DNA of 64,000 nt from an uncultured Selenomonadales bacterium. GTDB lineage: Bacteria > Bacillota > Negativicutes > Selenomonadales > Selenomonadaceae. A program made the position numbers and the translations under genes. Of this stretch, positions 20,874-47,842 are shown piece by piece. Within the stretch, counting starts at the first letter, position 1. The number at the start of each line of letters is the position of its first letter. Under the pieces are notes generated by a model. The model made no database searches and was not told the origin of the DNA. It saw nothing but the letters and a program-made list of their open reading frames with translations. The stretch is taken from contig CAMJRX010000007.1 in the NCBI GenBank assembly GCA_946408355.1, forward strand, positions 1 through 64,000, read 5' to 3'.

Positions 20874-21269
20874 TCAAGTGTCGCTTCTGTGCGGGAGCCA
20901 CTCCACTTGAATTTTAATTTCTTCGTCAGCTTTTGCGTCTATGCTGTGGTTGTAGGGCTTATCGTGCCAAGCAGGCGTAATTTTGTCAATTATCGACTTG
21001 CCGTTAATCGTCAGCTTCGTGTAATCAATCCAATTAGGAACGCGTTTAGAATTATCTTTCGGGTCGCGGACATCCATTCCCAAAAGATTAACGTTAATTT
21101 TACCGTCTGCAGTGGCTTTAGCGATAAATTCCATTTTGCCAGCGTAGGATTGAATCTGATAACCGATGCCGCCTTTTTGCAACCAAGTAGGTTTGATAAC
21201 TTCAGCTTGATTATCCGACATGGAAAGAATTTGGAAATCGCCCTTTGTCGATTGCAGTTTAATGTCCAT
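20874..21269 (-). repeat. 154-residue module g (C-terminal)
   Basis: Ends the protein at EWLPHRSDT. The same ending occurs in the module of the asparagine-synthase-like protein at 47430-47842. Confidence 0.85.
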
Positions 21270-24200
21270 TCTGCTGGTAACATATGGCGGGAATTTATCA
21301 ACAGTCGGCTTTTCTACAATTTTATCCGGTAAAATGTCCTCTCTGTGCGGGAGCCATTCAAACTTTACTTTAATTTCTTCGTTGGCTTTTGTTTCCATAG
21401 TGTAAACATAAGGTTGGTCGTGCCAAGCAGGCGTAATTTTGTCGAATATTGTCTTGCCGTTTACCGCCAATTTAGTGTAGTCAATCCAGTAAGGAATTAA
21501 TTTAGATTTGTTCTCAGGGTCTTGAACCCACATTCCCCTAAGTTCAAAACGAACTTGACCGTTTGCAGTAGCTTTAGCGACGAATTCAACTTTGCCCGCT
21601 TGAGACATAATTACGTAGCCGACGCCACCCTTTTGGAACCAATCAGGCTTGAGAACTTCTGCGCTATCGTCGGACACGGAAAGGAGTTGGAAATCGCCCT
21701 CTGTCGACCAGAATTTGAAATCCACTCTGCCGGTAATGTAATTTCTGAATTTACTGATTGCCGACGAGTTTTTCTCTTTGAAAAGAGCCGAGCACAACGC
21801 AGAAATCGGAACATCAAAATCTCCGAGCCGTTCGCTAAATTCGCTTTTTATCGTCTCGTAAACTTCGTCTACAGAAAGTTGTGCTGCATCGTTAAAGCCC
21901 GCGGTTATCGTGTCATTAAAGAATCTTTTTAATATAGCATAACGTTTTTGCGGGTTTGTCTTGAAAAATTCATGCTTAGCCATCAAGTTATCAAGACTTT
22001 TTAAACCTAGCAGGAAAGGATTTAAATGAAAATTCATCGCTTGTTTCGGTGATTTTTTAATACCCGTTATCGAATCGTCTCTCATGCGGCGAATGTATAT
22101 AATGTTCGGCACACGTAAGAACTTTTTGGCAAAAAAAATTAATCCGTAGGACCAAATATCATCGTCGCCAATCGTTAAACCTGGGAAAAATATTTTATTT
22201 TTTAATAATAAGTTACGTTTAACTAATTTATCCCAAGGCACAACCCAAAATCTTCTGTTCAATATTTTTTCTACTCGTTCAGATAAATCCTCCGTTTCAA
22301 GTGTCGGCTTGTCAACAAAGGGCGGTGGTTGCATTTCTTTGTTAGCAAGATAAATATTTTTGATGAATTCTTCGCCGTAGCCCGTTGACATGAAATATTT
22401 TTCGCAATAAACAACATCGGCATCATATTTTTTTGCGAGTGTATAGAGTTCTTCAAGTGCAGTCTTTGTAAGTGTGTCGTCGTTATCCATGTTGTAAACA
22501 TATTCGCCGCTTGCATGAATGAGTCCCTTGTTTCTTGCAAGCGCGCCACTACCGAAATTTTTATCTGTAGAATAAAGTTTCAAGTGCCCGTCAAATTTAG
22601 ATGTATAGCTTTCAACAATTTTGACGCTGTTGTCGGTGGAGCAGTCGTCAACCACGATAACTTCAAAGTCTTTAAACGTTTGCGCTAAAAGACTGTCTAA
22701 ACATTCGGCGATATATTTCTCAGCATTGTACATCGGAATAATAACTGAGATAGCCGTAAGATTCTCCGTGATGGGTATAGGAGTTAATTCCTTCTGGTCA
22801 AGTTCGTGTTCAGTCGAAAAATCTTTATCAATATCAGCAATATGTGGAAGCCATTCAACTTGAATTTTAATTTCCTCATTGGCTTTGGCGTCCATGCCGT
22901 AATAATAGGCTTTATCGTGCCAAGCGGGGGTGCGCTTGTCAATTATCGACTTGCCGTTAATCGTCAGCTTTGTGTAGTCAATCCAATAGGGTATACGTTT
23001 GGAATTGTCCTTCGGGTCGGGAACATCTAATCCCCTAAGATCCAAATTAATTTTTCCGTCCGCAGTGGCTTTAGCGACGAACTCCATTTTGCCAGCGTAG
23101 GATTGAATCGTATAGCCAATGCCGCCTCTTTGTAACCAAGCGGGCTTGAGAACTTCGGCGTTATCATCAGATACGGAAAGGATTTGGAAATCGCCATCTG
23201 TCGACTGCAATTTAACGTCTAATCTGCCGGTAACATAGGGCAGGAATTTATCAACAAGCGATTTTTCCTCTGGTTTAGAAACTTCTGGTAAAATGTCGTC
23301 TCTGTGCGGGAGCCATTCGACTTGAAATTTAATTTCCTCGCCGGCTTTTGCGTCCATGCTGTGATTGTAGGGTTTATCATGCCAAGCGGGCGTAATTTTG
23401 TCAATTATCGTTTTGCCGTTAATCGTCAGCTTTGTATAGTCAATCCAGTTAGGAACGCGCTTAGAATTGTCTTTCGGGTCGCGGACATCCATTCCCATAA
23501 GATTAACGTTAATTTTACCGTCTGCAGTGGCTTTAGCGACAAACTCCATTTTGCCAGCGTAGGATTGAATAGTATAGCCAATGCCATTCTTCTGCAACCA
23601 AGTAGGTTTCTGCACGCTAGCATTATCGTCAGACATAGAAAGAATTTGGAAATCGCCCTTTGTCGACTCCAGTTTAACGTCCATTCTGCTGGTAACATAT
23701 GGCGGGAATTTATCAACGGGCGGTTTTTCCTCCGTTTTAGAAACTTCTGGCAAAATGTCGTCTCTGTGCGGGAGCCATTCGACTTGAATTTTAATTTCCT
23801 CGTTGGCTTTTGCGTCTATGTTGTGACGGTAAGCTTTATCATGCCAAGCGGGCGTAATTTTGTCAATTATCAACTTGCCGTTCACCGTCAGCTTTGTGTA
23901 GTCAATCCAATAGGGTATACGTTTAGAATTGTCCTTCGGGTCGGGAACATCTAAACCTCTAAGAGCCAAATCAATTTTACCATCCGCAGTAGTTTTAGCG
24001 ACGAATTCCATTTTGCCAGCGTAGGATTGAATAGTATAGCCAATGCCATTCTTCTGCAACCAAGTAGGTTTCTGCACGCTAGCATTATCGTCAGACATAG
24101 AAAGAATTTGGAAATCGCCCTTTGTCGACTCCAGTTTAACGTCCATTCTGCTGGTAACATATGGCGGGAATTTATCAACGGGCGGTTTTTCCTCCGTTTT

Positions 24201-27170
24201 AGAAACTTCTGGCAAAATGTCGTCTCTGTGCGGGAGCCATTCGACTTGAATTTTAATTTCCTCGTTGGCTTTTGCGTCTATGTTGTGACGGTAAGCTTTA
24301 TCATGCCAAGCGGGCGTAATTTTGTCAATTATCAACTTGCCGTTCACCGTCAGCTTTGTGTAGTCAATCCAATAGGGTATACGTTTAGAATTGTCCTTCG
24401 GGTCGGGAACATCTAAACCTCTAAGAGCCAAATCAATTTTACCATCCGCAGTAGTTTTAGCGACGAATTCCATTTTGCCAGCGTAGGATTGAATAGTATA
24501 GCCAATGCCATTCTTCTGCAACCAAGTAGGTTTCTGCACGCTAGCATTATCGTCAGACATAGAAAGAATTTGGAAATCGCCCTTTGTCGACTCCAGTTTA
24601 ACGTCCATTCTGCTGGTAACATATGGCGGGAATTTATCAACGGGCGGTTTTTCCTCCGTTTTAGAAACTTCTGGCAAAATGTCGCCTCTGTGCGGGAGCC
24701 ATTCAAACTGAACCTTGATTTCCTCGTTAGCTTTTGCTTCCATAGTGTAAAAATAAGGTTGGTCGTGCCAAGCAGGTGTAATTTTGTCGAATATAATCTG
24801 CCCGTTTACTATCAGCTTCGTGTAGTCAATCCAATAAGGAATTAATTTAGTTTTATCCTCAGGGTCTTGAACCCACATTCCTCTAAAATCAAAATTAACT
24901 CGACCGTTTGCAGTGGCTTTGACAACGAATTCTACTTTTCCCGTGTGGGACATAATTACATAGCCAATGCCGCCCTTTTGGAACCAATCGGGTTTGAGGA
25001 CTTCTGCTCTATCGTCGGACACGGAAAGGAGTTGGAAATCGCCCTCTGTCGACCAAAATTTGAAATCTACTCTACCGGTAAAAAAGCGACTTAATTTATG
25101 CATAATCTGTGCTTCAGCATTAATTTTTGAGAAATCTTCTAATGCATAGAAAAAGAATTCCGTCAAAATTGTTTGGTCGTCGTCGGTAAATATTTTTCTT
25201 AAAACTTTGTTGCGCTCAGGGGTAGGGACTTCATGATAAATTTTTCGTATATACAGTTCCCATATTTCCTTTAAATAGGTGCAGAGTGCTATACGTTTGG
25301 TTTCGAGATTTTTTTGGAAGAAGTCTCTTTTGCTCAAAAATTCATCTAAATACTTAAATCCAAATTTTAACGAACTTAAATACATTTCAAGTTGCTGTAA
25401 GGGTTTGCGTTTTTGGTGATATAAAGAACTTTCGCGCACTCGATAAAAATTAACTGCATATGGCACGCGGACAAATTTTTTTGCGGTGTAAGCCATGCAA
25501 CAAGTCGCTACAAAATCTTGAATAATATTCTTCGTGAAACGTATTTCGTTTTCTATTAAGAAATCACGACGAATTAATTTAGTCCACAATTCCCATAAGA
25601 ATTTGCGCCCGTAACAATCCTGCACACGTTGCGGAATATTAAAAGGTAATAAAGTCGGTTCCGACACAGGACCGCCCTGTTGATAGCCATGCGGTTTAAG
25701 ATTCTTTCTAAATTCGGCGTCATTCCAAGACTTTTCGGGCACCCAATAATATTTATCGCAAGCGACAACATCAGCATCATATTTTTTTGCGGTGGTGTAA
25801 AGTTTTTCGAGCGCGTCGGGTGTGACGGCGTCGTCATTGTCCATTATGAACAAATATTCGCCACGCGATAAAGATACTCCTAGATTACCTGGCTCTCCTG
25901 GGCTGCCCGTATTTTCGTCTGTTTTTATAAGTTTGAGCCGCCCGTTAAATCTCGTCCCGTAACCGTTAACAACTTGAATGCTGTTGTCAGTTGAACAATC
26001 ATCGACCACGATAACCTCAAAATCTTGAAAAGTCTGATCAAGGAGGCTGTCAAGGCAATCTCCGATATATTTTTCGGCATTATACATCGGAATAATTACA
26101 GAGATACGTTTTTGATTCACGGCCGATTTGAGTCGGTAGGTATTGTTAAACAAAAACGCCGTAAACGCGCTGTTGTCGTCTAATTCTTTCCTTAAAAGTT
26201 CATCAATATCGTATGGAGAGAATTCATCATAGGCCTTTTTGAGAAGATATATAATTTCATTCATAAAAGCATTGAATAAAACATATTTTAAATTGGGTCT
26301 ATGCGAAAAAAATTCACGAGTACTTAAAAATTTGTCAAGGTAATTTATTCCGTTCTTTAAAGTTAATACGTACTTGTGAATTATTTCTTTCACACTAAGA
26401 TTTACGTGACCTTTTATTGATGAGTCCTTCCTTAAACGATATAGATAAAAAGTATTAGGCATAACGAGATAATTTTTCGCGCAACAGATTTCACACATTG
26501 TAAAAATCATATCTTCGGCGTAAACATTTGTAAAGCGAATTTCATTTTCAAACATAAAATCCCGGCGAATCATTTGTAAGCAAACGCTCCATGTTAGCCA
26601 TCTTTTTTGACAGAAATCTTTAACTCGCTTTTCAATATCATTCGTCAAAAGTGTAGGCTGCGTTGTAAAAATTCTTTCTCCCGACGGGTGAACAGTGGGA
26701 GTCATATTTTTTCTGTATTCGGCGTCGTTATAAAATTCGTCGAGAATACCATACCATTTTTCACAGTGAACGACATCGGCCTCGAATTTTTTCGCAGCGT
26801 TATACATCTCTTTAAGCGTGTTCGGCATAATCGTATCGTCTGGGTCAATAAAGGATATATATTCGCCGGTAGAAAGTTCAATGCCGATATTACGTGGTTC
26901 ACCTGCTCCGCCGGAATTTTTTTCTGTTTGGGCAATAGTGAGCCGCCCGCTAAATTTCGATTCATAGCTCTTGACGATTTCGCGGCTGTTGTCAGTTGAG
27001 CAATCGTCTACAACTATAACATCAAAATCTTGAAAAGTTTGAGCTAAAAGGCTGTCAAGACATTCGCCGACATATTTGTCCACGTTGTACATGGGAATAA
27101 CCACGGAAACCGCAAAGGCAGGTAGTAGGGGGGGGGGATTATCAATAGGTGATTTGACTACATTTTCCAT
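20874..27170 (-). CDS. Giant triple-GT2 glycosyltransferase with seven repeat modules
   Basis: 2,098 residues. Three GT-A (family 2) domains begin SVVIPMYN or SVIIPMYN and carry VVDDCSTDNS: residues ~20-350, ~352-700 and ~1465-1815. Between GT2-2 and GT2-3 are five modules of ~154 residues, and two more follow GT2-3. Each reads from GDFQ(I/L)LS(V/M)SD through YWIDYTKL or NWIDYTKL and TPAWHD to EWLPH. No signal peptide or TM helix is seen, so it probably acts in the cytoplasm on a lipid-linked glycan. A run of ten C (coding strand, 27128-27137) covers codons 12-14, just after the start, and would switch translation off if its length changed. Start ATG 27170 follows AAGGACGG. The module may bind glycan or a shared scaffold; this is inference. 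Confidence 0.85.
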   Translation of the reverse strand: MENVVKSPIDNPPPLLPAFAVSVVIPMYNVDKYVGECLDSLLAQTFQDFDVIVVDDCSTDNSREIVKSYESKFSGRLTIAQTEKNSGGAGEPRNIGIELSTGEYISFIDPDDTIMPNTLKEMYNAAKKFEADVVHCEKWYGILDEFYNDAEYRKNMTPTVHPSGERIFTTQPTLLTNDIEKRVKDFCQKRWLTWSVCLQMIRRDFMFENEIRFTNVYAEDMIFTMCEICCAKNYLVMPNTFYLYRLRKDSSIKGHVNLSVKEIIHKYVLTLKNGINYLDKFLSTREFFSHRPNLKYVLFNAFMNEIIYLLKKAYDEFSPYDIDELLRKELDDNSAFTAFLFNNTYRLKSAVNQKRISVIIPMYNAEKYIGDCLDSLLDQTFQDFEVIVVDDCSTDNSIQVVNGYGTRFNGRLKLIKTDENTGSPGEPGNLGVSLSRGEYLFIMDNDDAVTPDALEKLYTTAKKYDADVVACDKYYWVPEKSWNDAEFRKNLKPHGYQQGGPVSEPTLLPFNIPQRVQDCYGRKFLWELWTKLIRRDFLIENEIRFTKNIIQDFVATCCMAYTAKKFVRVPYAVNFYRVRESSLYHQKRKPLQQLEMYLSSLKFGFKYLDEFLSKRDFFQKNLETKRIALCTYLKEIWELYIRKIYHEVPTPERNKVLRKIFTDDDQTILTEFFFYALEDFSKINAEAQIMHKLSRFFTGRVDFKFWSTEGDFQLLSVSDDRAEVLKPDWFQKGGIGYVIMSHTGKVEFVVKATANGRVNFDFRGMWVQDPEDKTKLIPYWIDYTKLIVNGQIIFDKITPAWHDQPYFYTMEAKANEEIKVQFEWLPHRGDILPEVSKTEEKPPVDKFPPYVTSRMDVKLESTKGDFQILSMSDDNASVQKPTWLQKNGIGYTIQSYAGKMEFVAKTTADGKIDLALRGLDVPDPKDNSKRIPYWIDYTKLTVNGKLIIDKITPAWHDKAYRHNIDAKANEEIKIQVEWLPHRDDILPEVSKTEEKPPVDKFPPYVTSRMDVKLESTKGDFQILSMSDDNASVQKPTWLQKNGIGYTIQSYAGKMEFVAKTTADGKIDLALRGLDVPDPKDNSKRIPYWIDYTKLTVNGKLIIDKITPAWHDKAYRHNIDAKANEEIKIQVEWLPHRDDILPEVSKTEEKPPVDKFPPYVTSRMDVKLESTKGDFQILSMSDDNASVQKPTWLQKNGIGYTIQSYAGKMEFVAKATADGKINVNLMGMDVRDPKDNSKRVPNWIDYTKLTINGKTIIDKITPAWHDKPYNHSMDAKAGEEIKFQVEWLPHRDDILPEVSKPEEKSLVDKFLPYVTGRLDVKLQSTDGDFQILSVSDDNAEVLKPAWLQRGGIGYTIQSYAGKMEFVAKATADGKINLDLRGLDVPDPKDNSKRIPYWIDYTKLTINGKSIIDKRTPAWHDKAYYYGMDAKANEEIKIQVEWLPHIADIDKDFSTEHELDQKELTPIPITENLTAISVIIPMYNAEKYIAECLDSLLAQTFKDFEVIVVDDCSTDNSVKIVESYTSKFDGHLKLYSTDKNFGSGALARNKGLIHASGEYVYNMDNDDTLTKTALEELYTLAKKYDADVVYCEKYFMSTGYGEEFIKNIYLANKEMQPPPFVDKPTLETEDLSERVEKILNRRFWVVPWDKLVKRNLLLKNKIFFPGLTIGDDDIWSYGLIFFAKKFLRVPNIIYIRRMRDDSITGIKKSPKQAMNFHLNPFLLGLKSLDNLMAKHEFFKTNPQKRYAILKRFFNDTITAGFNDAAQLSVDEVYETIKSEFSERLGDFDVPISALCSALFKEKNSSAISKFRNYITGRVDFKFWSTEGDFQLLSVSDDSAEVLKPDWFQKGGVGYVIMSQAGKVEFVAKATANGQVRFELRGMWVQDPENKSKLIPYWIDYTKLAVNGKTIFDKITPAWHDQPYVYTMETKANEEIKVKFEWLPHREDILPDKIVEKPTVDKFPPYVTSRMDIKLQSTKGDFQILSMSDNQAEVIKPTWLQKGGIGYQIQSYAGKMEFIAKATADGKINVNLLGMDVRDPKDNSKRVPNWIDYTKLTINGKSIIDKITPAWHDKPYNHSIDAKADEEIKIQVEWLPHRSDT
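21270..21725 (-). repeat. 154-residue module f
   Basis: First module after GT2-3. It is of the divergent FWSTEGDFQLLS type, like module a, so each GT2 domain is followed by this type first. Confidence 0.8.
22835..23222 (-). repeat. 154-residue module e
   Basis: Last module before GT2-3, reading from DVKLQSTDGDFQ to EWLPHIADID. A short linker rich in Glu and Pro leads into GT2-3. Confidence 0.8.
23223..23684 (-). repeat. 154-residue module d
   Basis: Its N-terminal half is nearly identical to b and c. The C-terminal half (MDVRDPKDNSKRVPNWIDY) switches to the type seen in module g, suggesting mosaic exchange. Confidence 0.85.
23685..24146 (-). repeat. 154-residue module c (identical to b)
   Basis: 462-bp tandem copy of module b. 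Identity at DNA level implies recent duplication or gene conversion. Confidence 0.9.
24147..24608 (-). repeat. 154-residue module b (identical to c)
   Basis: 462 bp from the Met of TSRMDVKL to the same Met in the next copy. By eye it is identical to module c base for base. Confidence 0.9.
24609..25070 (-). repeat. 154-residue module a
   Basis: First of the five modules after GT2-2. It is a divergent type (FWSTEGDFQLLSVSDDRAEV, MWVQDPEDKTK) that is closest to module f. Confidence 0.85.
27128..27137. repeat. G10 homopolymer in the giant GT gene
   Basis: Ten consecutive G on the + strand encode codons Asn-Pro-Pro-Pro-Leu near the N-terminus. In this sequence the gene is in frame. Slipped-strand change by one base would end translation early, the classic signature of a contingency locus. 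Confidence 0.95.
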
Positions 27171-45556: not shown

Positions 45557-45577
45557 CTGCTTAGGAGGTTGATGCGT

Positions 45578-47842
45578 ATGATAAACGCTGACGAACACAA
45601 GAAATTATTGGCGCAGATCACGGAGCTTGAAAAAAATAGCGTCAATTATTTCGATGTCGAGAAAGAATTTTTCCTTATCGACTCTAACAATTTATCCCAA
45701 GTTCGTCCTCGCCTTTATGGCTACTCAATTCAGCGCAGTGGCATTTATGAGGACGATGACCTTACACCCGAAGCAATCGCAGGCTTAGACGGGCGCGGGT
45801 GCTATATTTATGTCGACGTTAAAGGCGGCGAAATAACGATTAAGCAAGACTTGAACGGTTGCTGGGGTATTTATCTTTTCCGTCACGGCGATTATTTCGC
45901 GTTGAGCAATTCTTTTTTCCGCTTGCTCGACCACATCAAATTTAAATATCCGCTGACGATTAACCGCGATTTTTGTAATTATCTGATGGCTAATTTAGTA
46001 TCAATTTCGCAAACTGTTGTCAATGAAATTCAGCTTGTAGAGCGAAATGCGGTTATACATGTAGATATTGCAAAGAAAAACCTTCAAATTGAGCTGATTG
46101 ATTACAAAGAACATAGCGTTCCTTTAGATTCTAAAGAAGGTGTAGCGATTTTAGATCGTTGGGTTGAATTCTGGAGCGGTATATTGCGTGGCGTGGCTCA
46201 ACATACAAAATTTCTTTCAGCCGATTTGACGGGTGGATTTGATACTCGAATTTATTTTGTGCCTTTGTTACATTCAGGGATAGATTTAAATAAAATTCTA
46301 GTTAATTCTATCAAGGACGATTCAAATCCCATTTTTAAGGAAGATTATGCTATTGCCTCTCAAATTGCAGAGAATTATTGTTTTAAATTGAATCAACCTC
46401 TACCTGCACGGCAATTTTTTAATTACAGCTTGAAAGATACATGGAATGCCGATTTATATTCTCAACAGACATTTCGCGGTTTACCTACTTTATCTTATGG
46501 AGGAAAAGCTATAGAAAAACGTTATCATCTACCAGGTAATTCCGGCGAAGTATTCCGTAAAACTTGGCAGGGGCTTCCTCAAAAATTTATAGATGACGAA
46601 TGTTCATCAACTAGGCGTTATTCTTCTTCCTTAGCTAAAGAATTAGATAATTCAATACAAACAATTATTAAATCCACTTTTAATGATGTTCGCAATAAAT
46701 ATCGAATCAAGGATCCAAATTCTATAGATATTCCGCAGTATTTTTATTATGAAACAAGAAGTAGAAATCACTGTGGCAAGGCGATTGTATCTACTTACTT
46801 AAGAAATTCAGTGGAGATTGTCCCTGCTTATGATCCAGAAATGCAAACTTTGCAACTTAAAACCTCAAAATGTCCAGATTACCATTTGTTAATGATACTG
46901 TTATTTACTCGATATGCGCCCGATTTATTAAAAATTCGCTTTGATAAATTTCATGAAGCTCCCGACTTTGAAAACCTTATTCCAGAAGCAAAAAAAATAA
47001 ATGAACGCTTCCCACTCGTCAAGAAAGATAAAGCAAGTATATCGGGGGGGGGGATTTTTCATCTGCAGTCGCGTGACACGCAAGCGGAAAAAATCTTTTC
47101 GTCTGGTCGCAACAATCCCAGCATTCCGCAGGAATTGCCGGAAGTTTGCTTGAAAGCGACTTTTGATTCTAGCAAAACTTACGGGCTGTTTACCGCTCAC
47201 TTTGACGAAGAATTTTATAATTATGCAAAGAATTATTATGATACGCATACTTTCGGTCGTGAAAGACCCATGTATGCTATTGTAGGAATCACGCAGGTTT
47301 TGGAGAGCGTGGAAATTAGCCAACGCAATTATCCGAAGTATCAAGACATGAAACGTTTCCTCGAACAGGACTTTGCTACAATTCACGATGACGCAAAAAT
47401 AATTAGTAAATTCAGCCGCTATTTTACCTCTAGAATAGATATTAAATTTATACCTAAAACAGCTGAAGGTAATTTTCAAATTCTTTCCGTATCTGATGAC
47501 AAGGCTGCAGTATGGAAACCAACTTGGTTCCAAAAAGGCGGCATTGGCTATCAGATTCAATCCTACACTGGAAAATTGGAACTCGTCACCAAAGCCACTG
47601 CGGACGGAAAAATTAATTTGTCTCTTTTGGGATTGGATGTCCGCGACCCTAAAGACAACTCTAAACGCATTCCTTATTGGATTGATTACACTAAGCTGAC
47701 GGTGAACGGGAAAGTTATATTCGACAGCATTACACCCGCTTGGCACAATAAACTTTATCGTTACAATATGGACGTGAAAGCTGGAGAGGAAATCAAAATA
47801 CAAGTCGAATGGCTCCCGCACAGGAGCGATACTGGAACTTAA
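45578..47842 (+). CDS. Asparagine-synthase-like protein with a shared C-terminal module
   Basis: 754 residues from ATG 45578. The N-terminal ~190 residues resemble an Ntn-type glutaminase-like domain (DLNGCWGIYLFRHGDYF) but lack an N-terminal catalytic Cys. Residues ~214-224 carry FLSADLTGGFDTRIYF, a PP-loop (SGGxDS-like) ATP-binding motif of the asparagine synthase fold, followed by ~200 residues of that domain. A G10 run (47044-47053) encodes SGGG at about residue 490, in the linker. Residues ~618-754 are the same module as in the giant GT (GNFQILSVSDDKAAV, IPYWIDYTKLTVNG, EWLPHRSDT). Possible role: amide or amino modification of a glycan, as in asparagine-synthase-like proteins of polysaccharide loci. 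The stop overlaps that of the convergent sugar transferase. Confidence 0.75.
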   Translation: MINADEHKKLLAQITELEKNSVNYFDVEKEFFLIDSNNLSQVRPRLYGYSIQRSGIYEDDDLTPEAIAGLDGRGCYIYVDVKGGEITIKQDLNGCWGIYLFRHGDYFALSNSFFRLLDHIKFKYPLTINRDFCNYLMANLVSISQTVVNEIQLVERNAVIHVDIAKKNLQIELIDYKEHSVPLDSKEGVAILDRWVEFWSGILRGVAQHTKFLSADLTGGFDTRIYFVPLLHSGIDLNKILVNSIKDDSNPIFKEDYAIASQIAENYCFKLNQPLPARQFFNYSLKDTWNADLYSQQTFRGLPTLSYGGKAIEKRYHLPGNSGEVFRKTWQGLPQKFIDDECSSTRRYSSSLAKELDNSIQTIIKSTFNDVRNKYRIKDPNSIDIPQYFYYETRSRNHCGKAIVSTYLRNSVEIVPAYDPEMQTLQLKTSKCPDYHLLMILLFTRYAPDLLKIRFDKFHEAPDFENLIPEAKKINERFPLVKKDKASISGGGIFHLQSRDTQAEKIFSSGRNNPSIPQELPEVCLKATFDSSKTYGLFTAHFDEEFYNYAKNYYDTHTFGRERPMYAIVGITQVLESVEISQRNYPKYQDMKRFLEQDFATIHDDAKIISKFSRYFTSRIDIKFIPKTAEGNFQILSVSDDKAAVWKPTWFQKGGIGYQIQSYTGKLELVTKATADGKINLSLLGLDVRDPKDNSKRIPYWIDYTKLTVNGKVIFDSITPAWHNKLYRYNMDVKAGEEIKIQVEWLPHRSDTGT
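47044..47053. repeat. G10 homopolymer in the Asn-synthase-like gene
   Basis: Ten consecutive G in the coding strand, codons Ser-Gly-Gly-Gly. The present length is in frame. One base more or less would cut off the C-terminal ~265 residues, including the shared module. Confidence 0.95.
47430..47842 (+). repeat. Shared 154-residue module (eighth copy)
   Basis: Encodes the same module as the seven in the giant GT gene on the opposite strand 20 kb away. The sequence from GGIGYQIQSY onward closely follows module g. Confidence 0.85.

Follow-up and report, generated by a model that had tools for sequence, protein, structure and literature searches.

A C10/G10 tract at the start of a giant glycosyltransferase gene is a candidate phase-variation switch in the rumen genus Quinella

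The 64-kb stretch of DNA analysed here (the window) carries on its minus strand a 2098-aa open reading frame (27170..20874) that encodes three GT2 glycosyltransferase domains and seven beta-sandwich repeats of about 133 aa. Near the start of this gene, at nt 34-43, lies a homopolymer of ten C (27128..27137, minus strand), a proposed slipped-strand switch that is now ON. The coding strand opens ATG GAA AAT GTA GTC AAA TCA CCT ATT GAT AAT CCC CCC CCC CTA, and the tract spans codons 12-14 together with the first base of codon 15. The first-pass annotation had reported a run of exactly ten G/C at codons 12-14 of a gene currently in frame: the length (G10 at 27128-27137 on the plus strand) and the frame (the 2098-aa ORF is open) are confirmed, and the codons were given correctly except for that last base. 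The annotated start looks right, because AAAGGA lies 8 nt ahead of the ATG and both start and leader are preserved in a sister species (G017). The homopolymer is longer than chance, sits inside a reading frame, and would abolish the full product if changed by one base. Computed products are 37 aa for a tract two bases shorter, 41 aa for one base shorter, 38 aa for one base longer and 42 aa for two bases longer. Translation would thus end some 22-28 codons past the tract, later than the "few codons" of the earlier annotation. A putative restart exists for the +1 change, since a TTG two codons ahead of the tract would then open the frame again; this could leave some expression of the gene and so counts against a strict switch, and no ribosome-binding site for the TTG is evident.

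The product had been described as a giant glycosyltransferase, and its domains agree: PF00535 matches it at 1.7e-107 over three stretches, each of the three GT2 domains bears a D-x-D-D motif, and the first matches 3bcv (9e-28) among solved family-2 glycosyltransferases. Judging from the GT2 family and from the other genes that bear tracts, the enzyme probably acts on a surface glycan. Alignments delimit the seven repeats, five of which fall within a 462-bp tandem array of 4.8 copies (22849..25053, minus strand) that encodes the repeat domain. The repeat belongs to no named family in Pfam or NCBIfam. Its AlphaFold model, a confident one (pLDDT 92.7), is a beta-sandwich, whose PDB matches are weak (Foldseek E at least 0.02, VIA-align Z no higher than 6.5) and spread over beta-sandwiches, among them CBM35, CBM51 and glycosidase accessory domains. 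The modelled fold is thus that of a beta-sandwich, possibly a carbohydrate-binding one; a more specific name was rejected because the structural matches are weak and scattered, and odd Pfam matches that fall within the repeats, GH127 and PRD1 spike among them, were disregarded because no stretch passes on its own. The G017 orthologue is 164 aa shorter and has fewer recognisable repeats, and repeat number may thus vary as well.

A second G10 tract (47044..47053, plus strand) lies near codon 491 in an ORF of 757 aa (45569..47842, plus strand) and is likewise ON. The encoded protein joins an unnamed N-terminal family to one copy of the ~133-aa repeat domain, which follows the tract. Its N-terminal 491 aa have no match in Pfam, NCBIfam or PDB sequences, and an asparagine-synthase-like identity for this part was supported by no test. 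The place of this tract is kept in six relatives, with lengths of 8, 8, 10, 11, 11 and 14, and 3/7 of the genes that share it are ON; some relatives of the gene have no tract at that place.

Chance does not account for the G/C tracts of this genome. Under a first-order model fitted to the 64-kb window and scaled to the 2.45-Mb genome, 0.27 G/C runs of at least 10 are expected and nine are observed (seven of length 10, one of 11 and one of 12; Poisson P about 2e-11). The excess holds for runs of at least 9 (16 vs 1.4) and at least 8 (22 vs 7.6), whereas runs of exactly 7 are depleted (9 vs 32 expected), so that 7s are scarce and lengths of 8-10 are piled up. Beside its two G10 tracts, the window itself lacks any G/C run of 7-9.

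A genome search placed the relatives with the same repeat domain in the same genus as the window; their loci occur in metagenome-assembled genomes (MAGs) that carry the names Quinella sp. 1Q5 or Selenomonadaceae bacterium and come from goat, sheep, roe deer and water buffalo. The host genus is Quinella, of the rumen Selenomonadaceae. G10 runs are present in 36/37 genomes of this genus and, within the class, are confined to Quinella and a few others. Two genomes from one other genus in another family of the class (G038 and G058) have several G10 matches each, and another Negativicutes lineage may therefore have such tracts too. The roe deer genome G003 has 88 G/C tracts of at least 9 in 2.4 Mb, far above its relatives (e.g. 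L112-L117, L126-L137); these are up to 16 long and mostly have a C directly before them.

Pfam tallies show that tract genes with a nameable family mostly encode polysaccharide enzymes; many tract genes have no family. The transferases among them include GT2, GT8, GT11, GT61, CDP-glycerol glycerophosphotransferase and acyltransferases, and further targets are FkbM and TylF methyltransferases, WcbI, DUF1919, UDP-glucose dehydrogenase, a nucleotide-sugar epimerase, TupA ATP-grasp and PGA_cap. RTX-repeat proteins, a flagellin and a LytTR response regulator are also represented. Targets in surface structures are usual, though not strictly defining, for contingency loci, and for the named families the tallies agree with this. 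A primase-like protein (G017) and a citrate lyase ligase (G003) lie off this theme. At the LytTR gene, a G11 run (L015 9363-9373; G000 contig C9:35362) separates a short receiver-like ORF from the ATG of the regulator, and is 9 bases long in the sister species; it may serve as ribosome-binding site or join the two frames.

Several non-coding G tracts sit between TTGACA and TATAAT-like boxes. A search with the pattern TTGACA-N(0-14)-G8-N(0-6)-ATANT returned 42 sites, all in the genus Quinella (among them L023 6217, L026 5782 and L028 6043 on G000 contigs C14, C23 and C26, and L138-L167); the 22 genomes that represent other families lacked such sites, and the reversed pattern had no match. The spacing is 19 in 20/42 sites and 14-27 overall. 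Downstream starts are mostly 23-100 bp away, and on visual inspection of their first 45 residues the products include RTX-repeat proteins and a flagellin. Because they resemble the arrangement at porA of Neisseria meningitidis (PMC3639595), these predicted promoter-spacer tracts should be sites of transcriptional phase variation. The switch-like tracts extend beyond a single gene and include these spacers as well as reading frames.

If tract length sets the frame at random, about two thirds of the tracts inside ORFs are expected to be out of frame. Surroundings were sampled for every tract of at least 8 in the genome of the window (22) and in G017 (41), and for roughly half of the G003 tracts; these loci were chosen for holding tracts, and A/T runs and short G/C runs from the same neighbourhoods served as controls. 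A strict rule demanded a minimum of 40 codons to either side of the tract, and a tract was scored OFF when a one-base change in its length would yield a longer ORF. G/C tracts of at least 8 inside ORFs were 45 OFF and 26 ON across the three genomes (63% OFF, close to the 2/3 of random phase). In these stretches, A/T runs of 8-12 were 11 OFF:110 ON (9%; Fisher 2e-15 vs tracts), and G/C runs of 5-6 were 7 OFF:55 ON (Fisher 4e-10 vs tracts).

Comparison between species, with one genome per species, points to sites that persist while their lengths change. Eleven tract sites of the genome match G017 on both flanks. Lengths (own/G017) differ at six (10/9, 11/9, 12/10, 10/9, 8/9 and 9/10) and are equal at four (8/8, 9/9, 9/9 and 8/8), and at the remaining site G017 has three tandem copies, whose tracts are 10, 8 and 13 long. 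Three sites are OFF here and ON in G017 (L019/L099, L020/L092 and L022/L093). The first-pass annotation had proposed a comparison with other strains; between species, the answer is divided: lengths and states differ at other tracts and within the gene family, whereas the closest orthologue of the 2098-aa gene itself (G017, 86% identity) has the same start and reads CCCCCCGGG at the tract place. This is C6, and a gene with that sequence could not switch by tract slippage. In other GT2-plus-repeat genes a start-adjacent tract just before the GT2 domain is shared in position and differs in length and state (L058, C9 ON; L068, C11 OFF; L073, C8 OFF). Further GT2 genes carry tracts of C10 (L034), C9 (L035) and C8 (L037), and one neighbouring GT8/GT2 paralogue pair (L049) combines a C9 that is ON with a C10 that is OFF. 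The C6 of G017 and the start-adjacent tracts in GT2 genes of other species together indicate that gain and loss of tracts in these genes is dynamic, with the start-adjacent position apparently recurring.

These observations make it highly probable that the C10 tract works as a translational switch of the phase-variation (contingency) type, as had been suggested from its layout: the enrichment, the genus-wide occurrence, the conserved positions with differing lengths, the ON/OFF reversals and the near-random frame without a parallel in A/T runs all argue for it. During replication the poly-C/poly-G run would slip and gain or lose a base, presumably at high frequency. Cells with 10 C, or with 10 plus or minus 3, would make the 2098-aa glycosyltransferase, and other tract lengths would yield only a peptide of 37-42 aa. 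Single cells would then differ randomly, and presumably reversibly, in a glycan that is probably a surface one; the benefit could perhaps be evasion of phages, protozoa or host factors. Besides the possible TTG restart, three points weigh against such a switch: the G017 orthologue has only C6, mismatch repair genes are present (see below), and the length differences between species could partly be ordinary slow indel evolution.

Out-of-frame states in over half of the ORF tracts would also be seen if the OFF genes were pseudogenes decaying at slippery sites, with the tracts being mutational hot spots that have no selected function, and some tract genes indeed lack a link to the surface. Decay of this kind is hard to square with downstream frames that stay open for hundreds of codons, orthologues that are ON in the sister species, tract positions that are kept while lengths vary, and runs of 7 that are depleted and not enriched, and we regard it as improbable. 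Those long open frames downstream of many OFF alleles would suit a different account, in which ribosomal or transcriptional slippage makes both frames from one DNA length and tract length is no on/off switch. Long homopolymers can promote slippage of either kind. Yet this account predicts neither the variation in DNA length among orthologues nor the promoter-spacer class, and it is the least probable of the alternatives. Sequencing or assembly artefact, finally, deserves attention given that all the genomes concerned are short-read MAG consensus sequences: poly-G miscalls, such as those of two-colour Illumina chemistry, or wrong homopolymer lengths, would create both tracts and frameshifts, and a few G runs do stand at contig ends (G056, G036). 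Against this, the tracts are internal, their flanks are conserved in genomes from other studies, and they occupy the same codon position in several species; outside Quinella few members of the class have them, A/T runs of comparable length are seldom out of frame, and the promoter tracts sit between two boxes. We consider artefact very improbable as a general explanation, a little more so than gene decay, although single tract lengths may still be miscalled by one base. A phase-variation switch remains the best explanation for the C10 tract.

In Campylobacter and Helicobacter, poly-G contingency loci are surface-glycan genes with G/C homopolymers of about 8-12 in glycosyltransferase frames. 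The Quinella tracts are like these in lying in glycosyltransferase frames, in the mix of ON and OFF states over the genome and in the short peptide that follows a frameshift; they differ in the host, a Negativicute with mutS and mutL, in the giant multi-GT2 target with its genus-typical repeat domain, and in the added promoter class. The phasome of Neisseria meningitidis includes the poly-G promoter spacer of porA (PMC3639595, PMC5084427), and there too homopolymer switches are found both in frames and between the -35 and -10 boxes of surface-protein genes. Unlike in N. meningitidis, the predicted promoters here repeat one layout (TTGACA-N-Gn-ATAAT, spacing mostly 19) ahead of RTX-repeat and flagellin genes. 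Homopolymers at the 5' end of prokaryotic genes are also known from inlA of Listeria and swrA of Bacillus (Orsi et al. 2010, PMC2831843), which share the location within the first codons and the very short frameshifted peptide; those are A tracts in single genes, whereas a genome-wide set of G/C tracts is seen here.

The earlier remark that such switches are little described in Negativicutes fits the open-access literature, in which we found no description of phase variation in Quinella or of homopolymeric phase variation in Negativicutes; the word homopolymer is absent from the Quinella genome paper (PMC9585023). The mechanism is already known, and it is the lineage and the genome-wide scale that appear to be undescribed. 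We favour, with some reserve, the broader view of a genus-wide Quinella phasome, with some 20 poly-G tracts to a genome and close to 90 in one case, that acts in the reading frames of glycan enzymes and a LytTR response regulator and through a recurring promoter cassette in which the G run forms the -35/-10 spacer (RTX-repeat proteins, flagellin), despite apparently intact mismatch repair. To our knowledge, most large poly-G phasomes on record come from host-adapted bacteria that are not Firmicutes. Quinella, a genus that is abundant in the rumen and uncultured, has been linked with low-methane sheep. The tracts suggest that, much like Campylobacter and Neisseria, these gut commensals vary their surface at random, and do so across an entire genus. 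Consensus sequences of tract genes in Quinella bins may then be snapshots of a mixture, and genes annotated as broken may simply be switched off. By electron microscopy, Quinella cells are granular or smooth, with or without an electron-dense layer, a heterogeneity for which the authors suggest growth stage or species differences (PMC9585023). Phase variation could explain this mixture, although the species in that study need not be the same, and the cell-surface heterogeneity gains a testable genetic explanation.

Absence of MutS1/MutL accompanies hypermutability of the Campylobacter/Helicobacter kind and does not define contingency loci. In the genome of the window and nearly all its relatives, MutS (with an intact F-x-E site) and MutL are present; the tracts are therefore not explained by lost repair genes, and loss of mismatch repair was rejected as the source of instability. 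Domain I of MutS has a 5-residue loop deletion in G000, G017, G028 and G004 (mutS at L118, L119, L123 and L124), which lies off the F-x-E site and is absent from the tract-richest genome (G003) and from other families.
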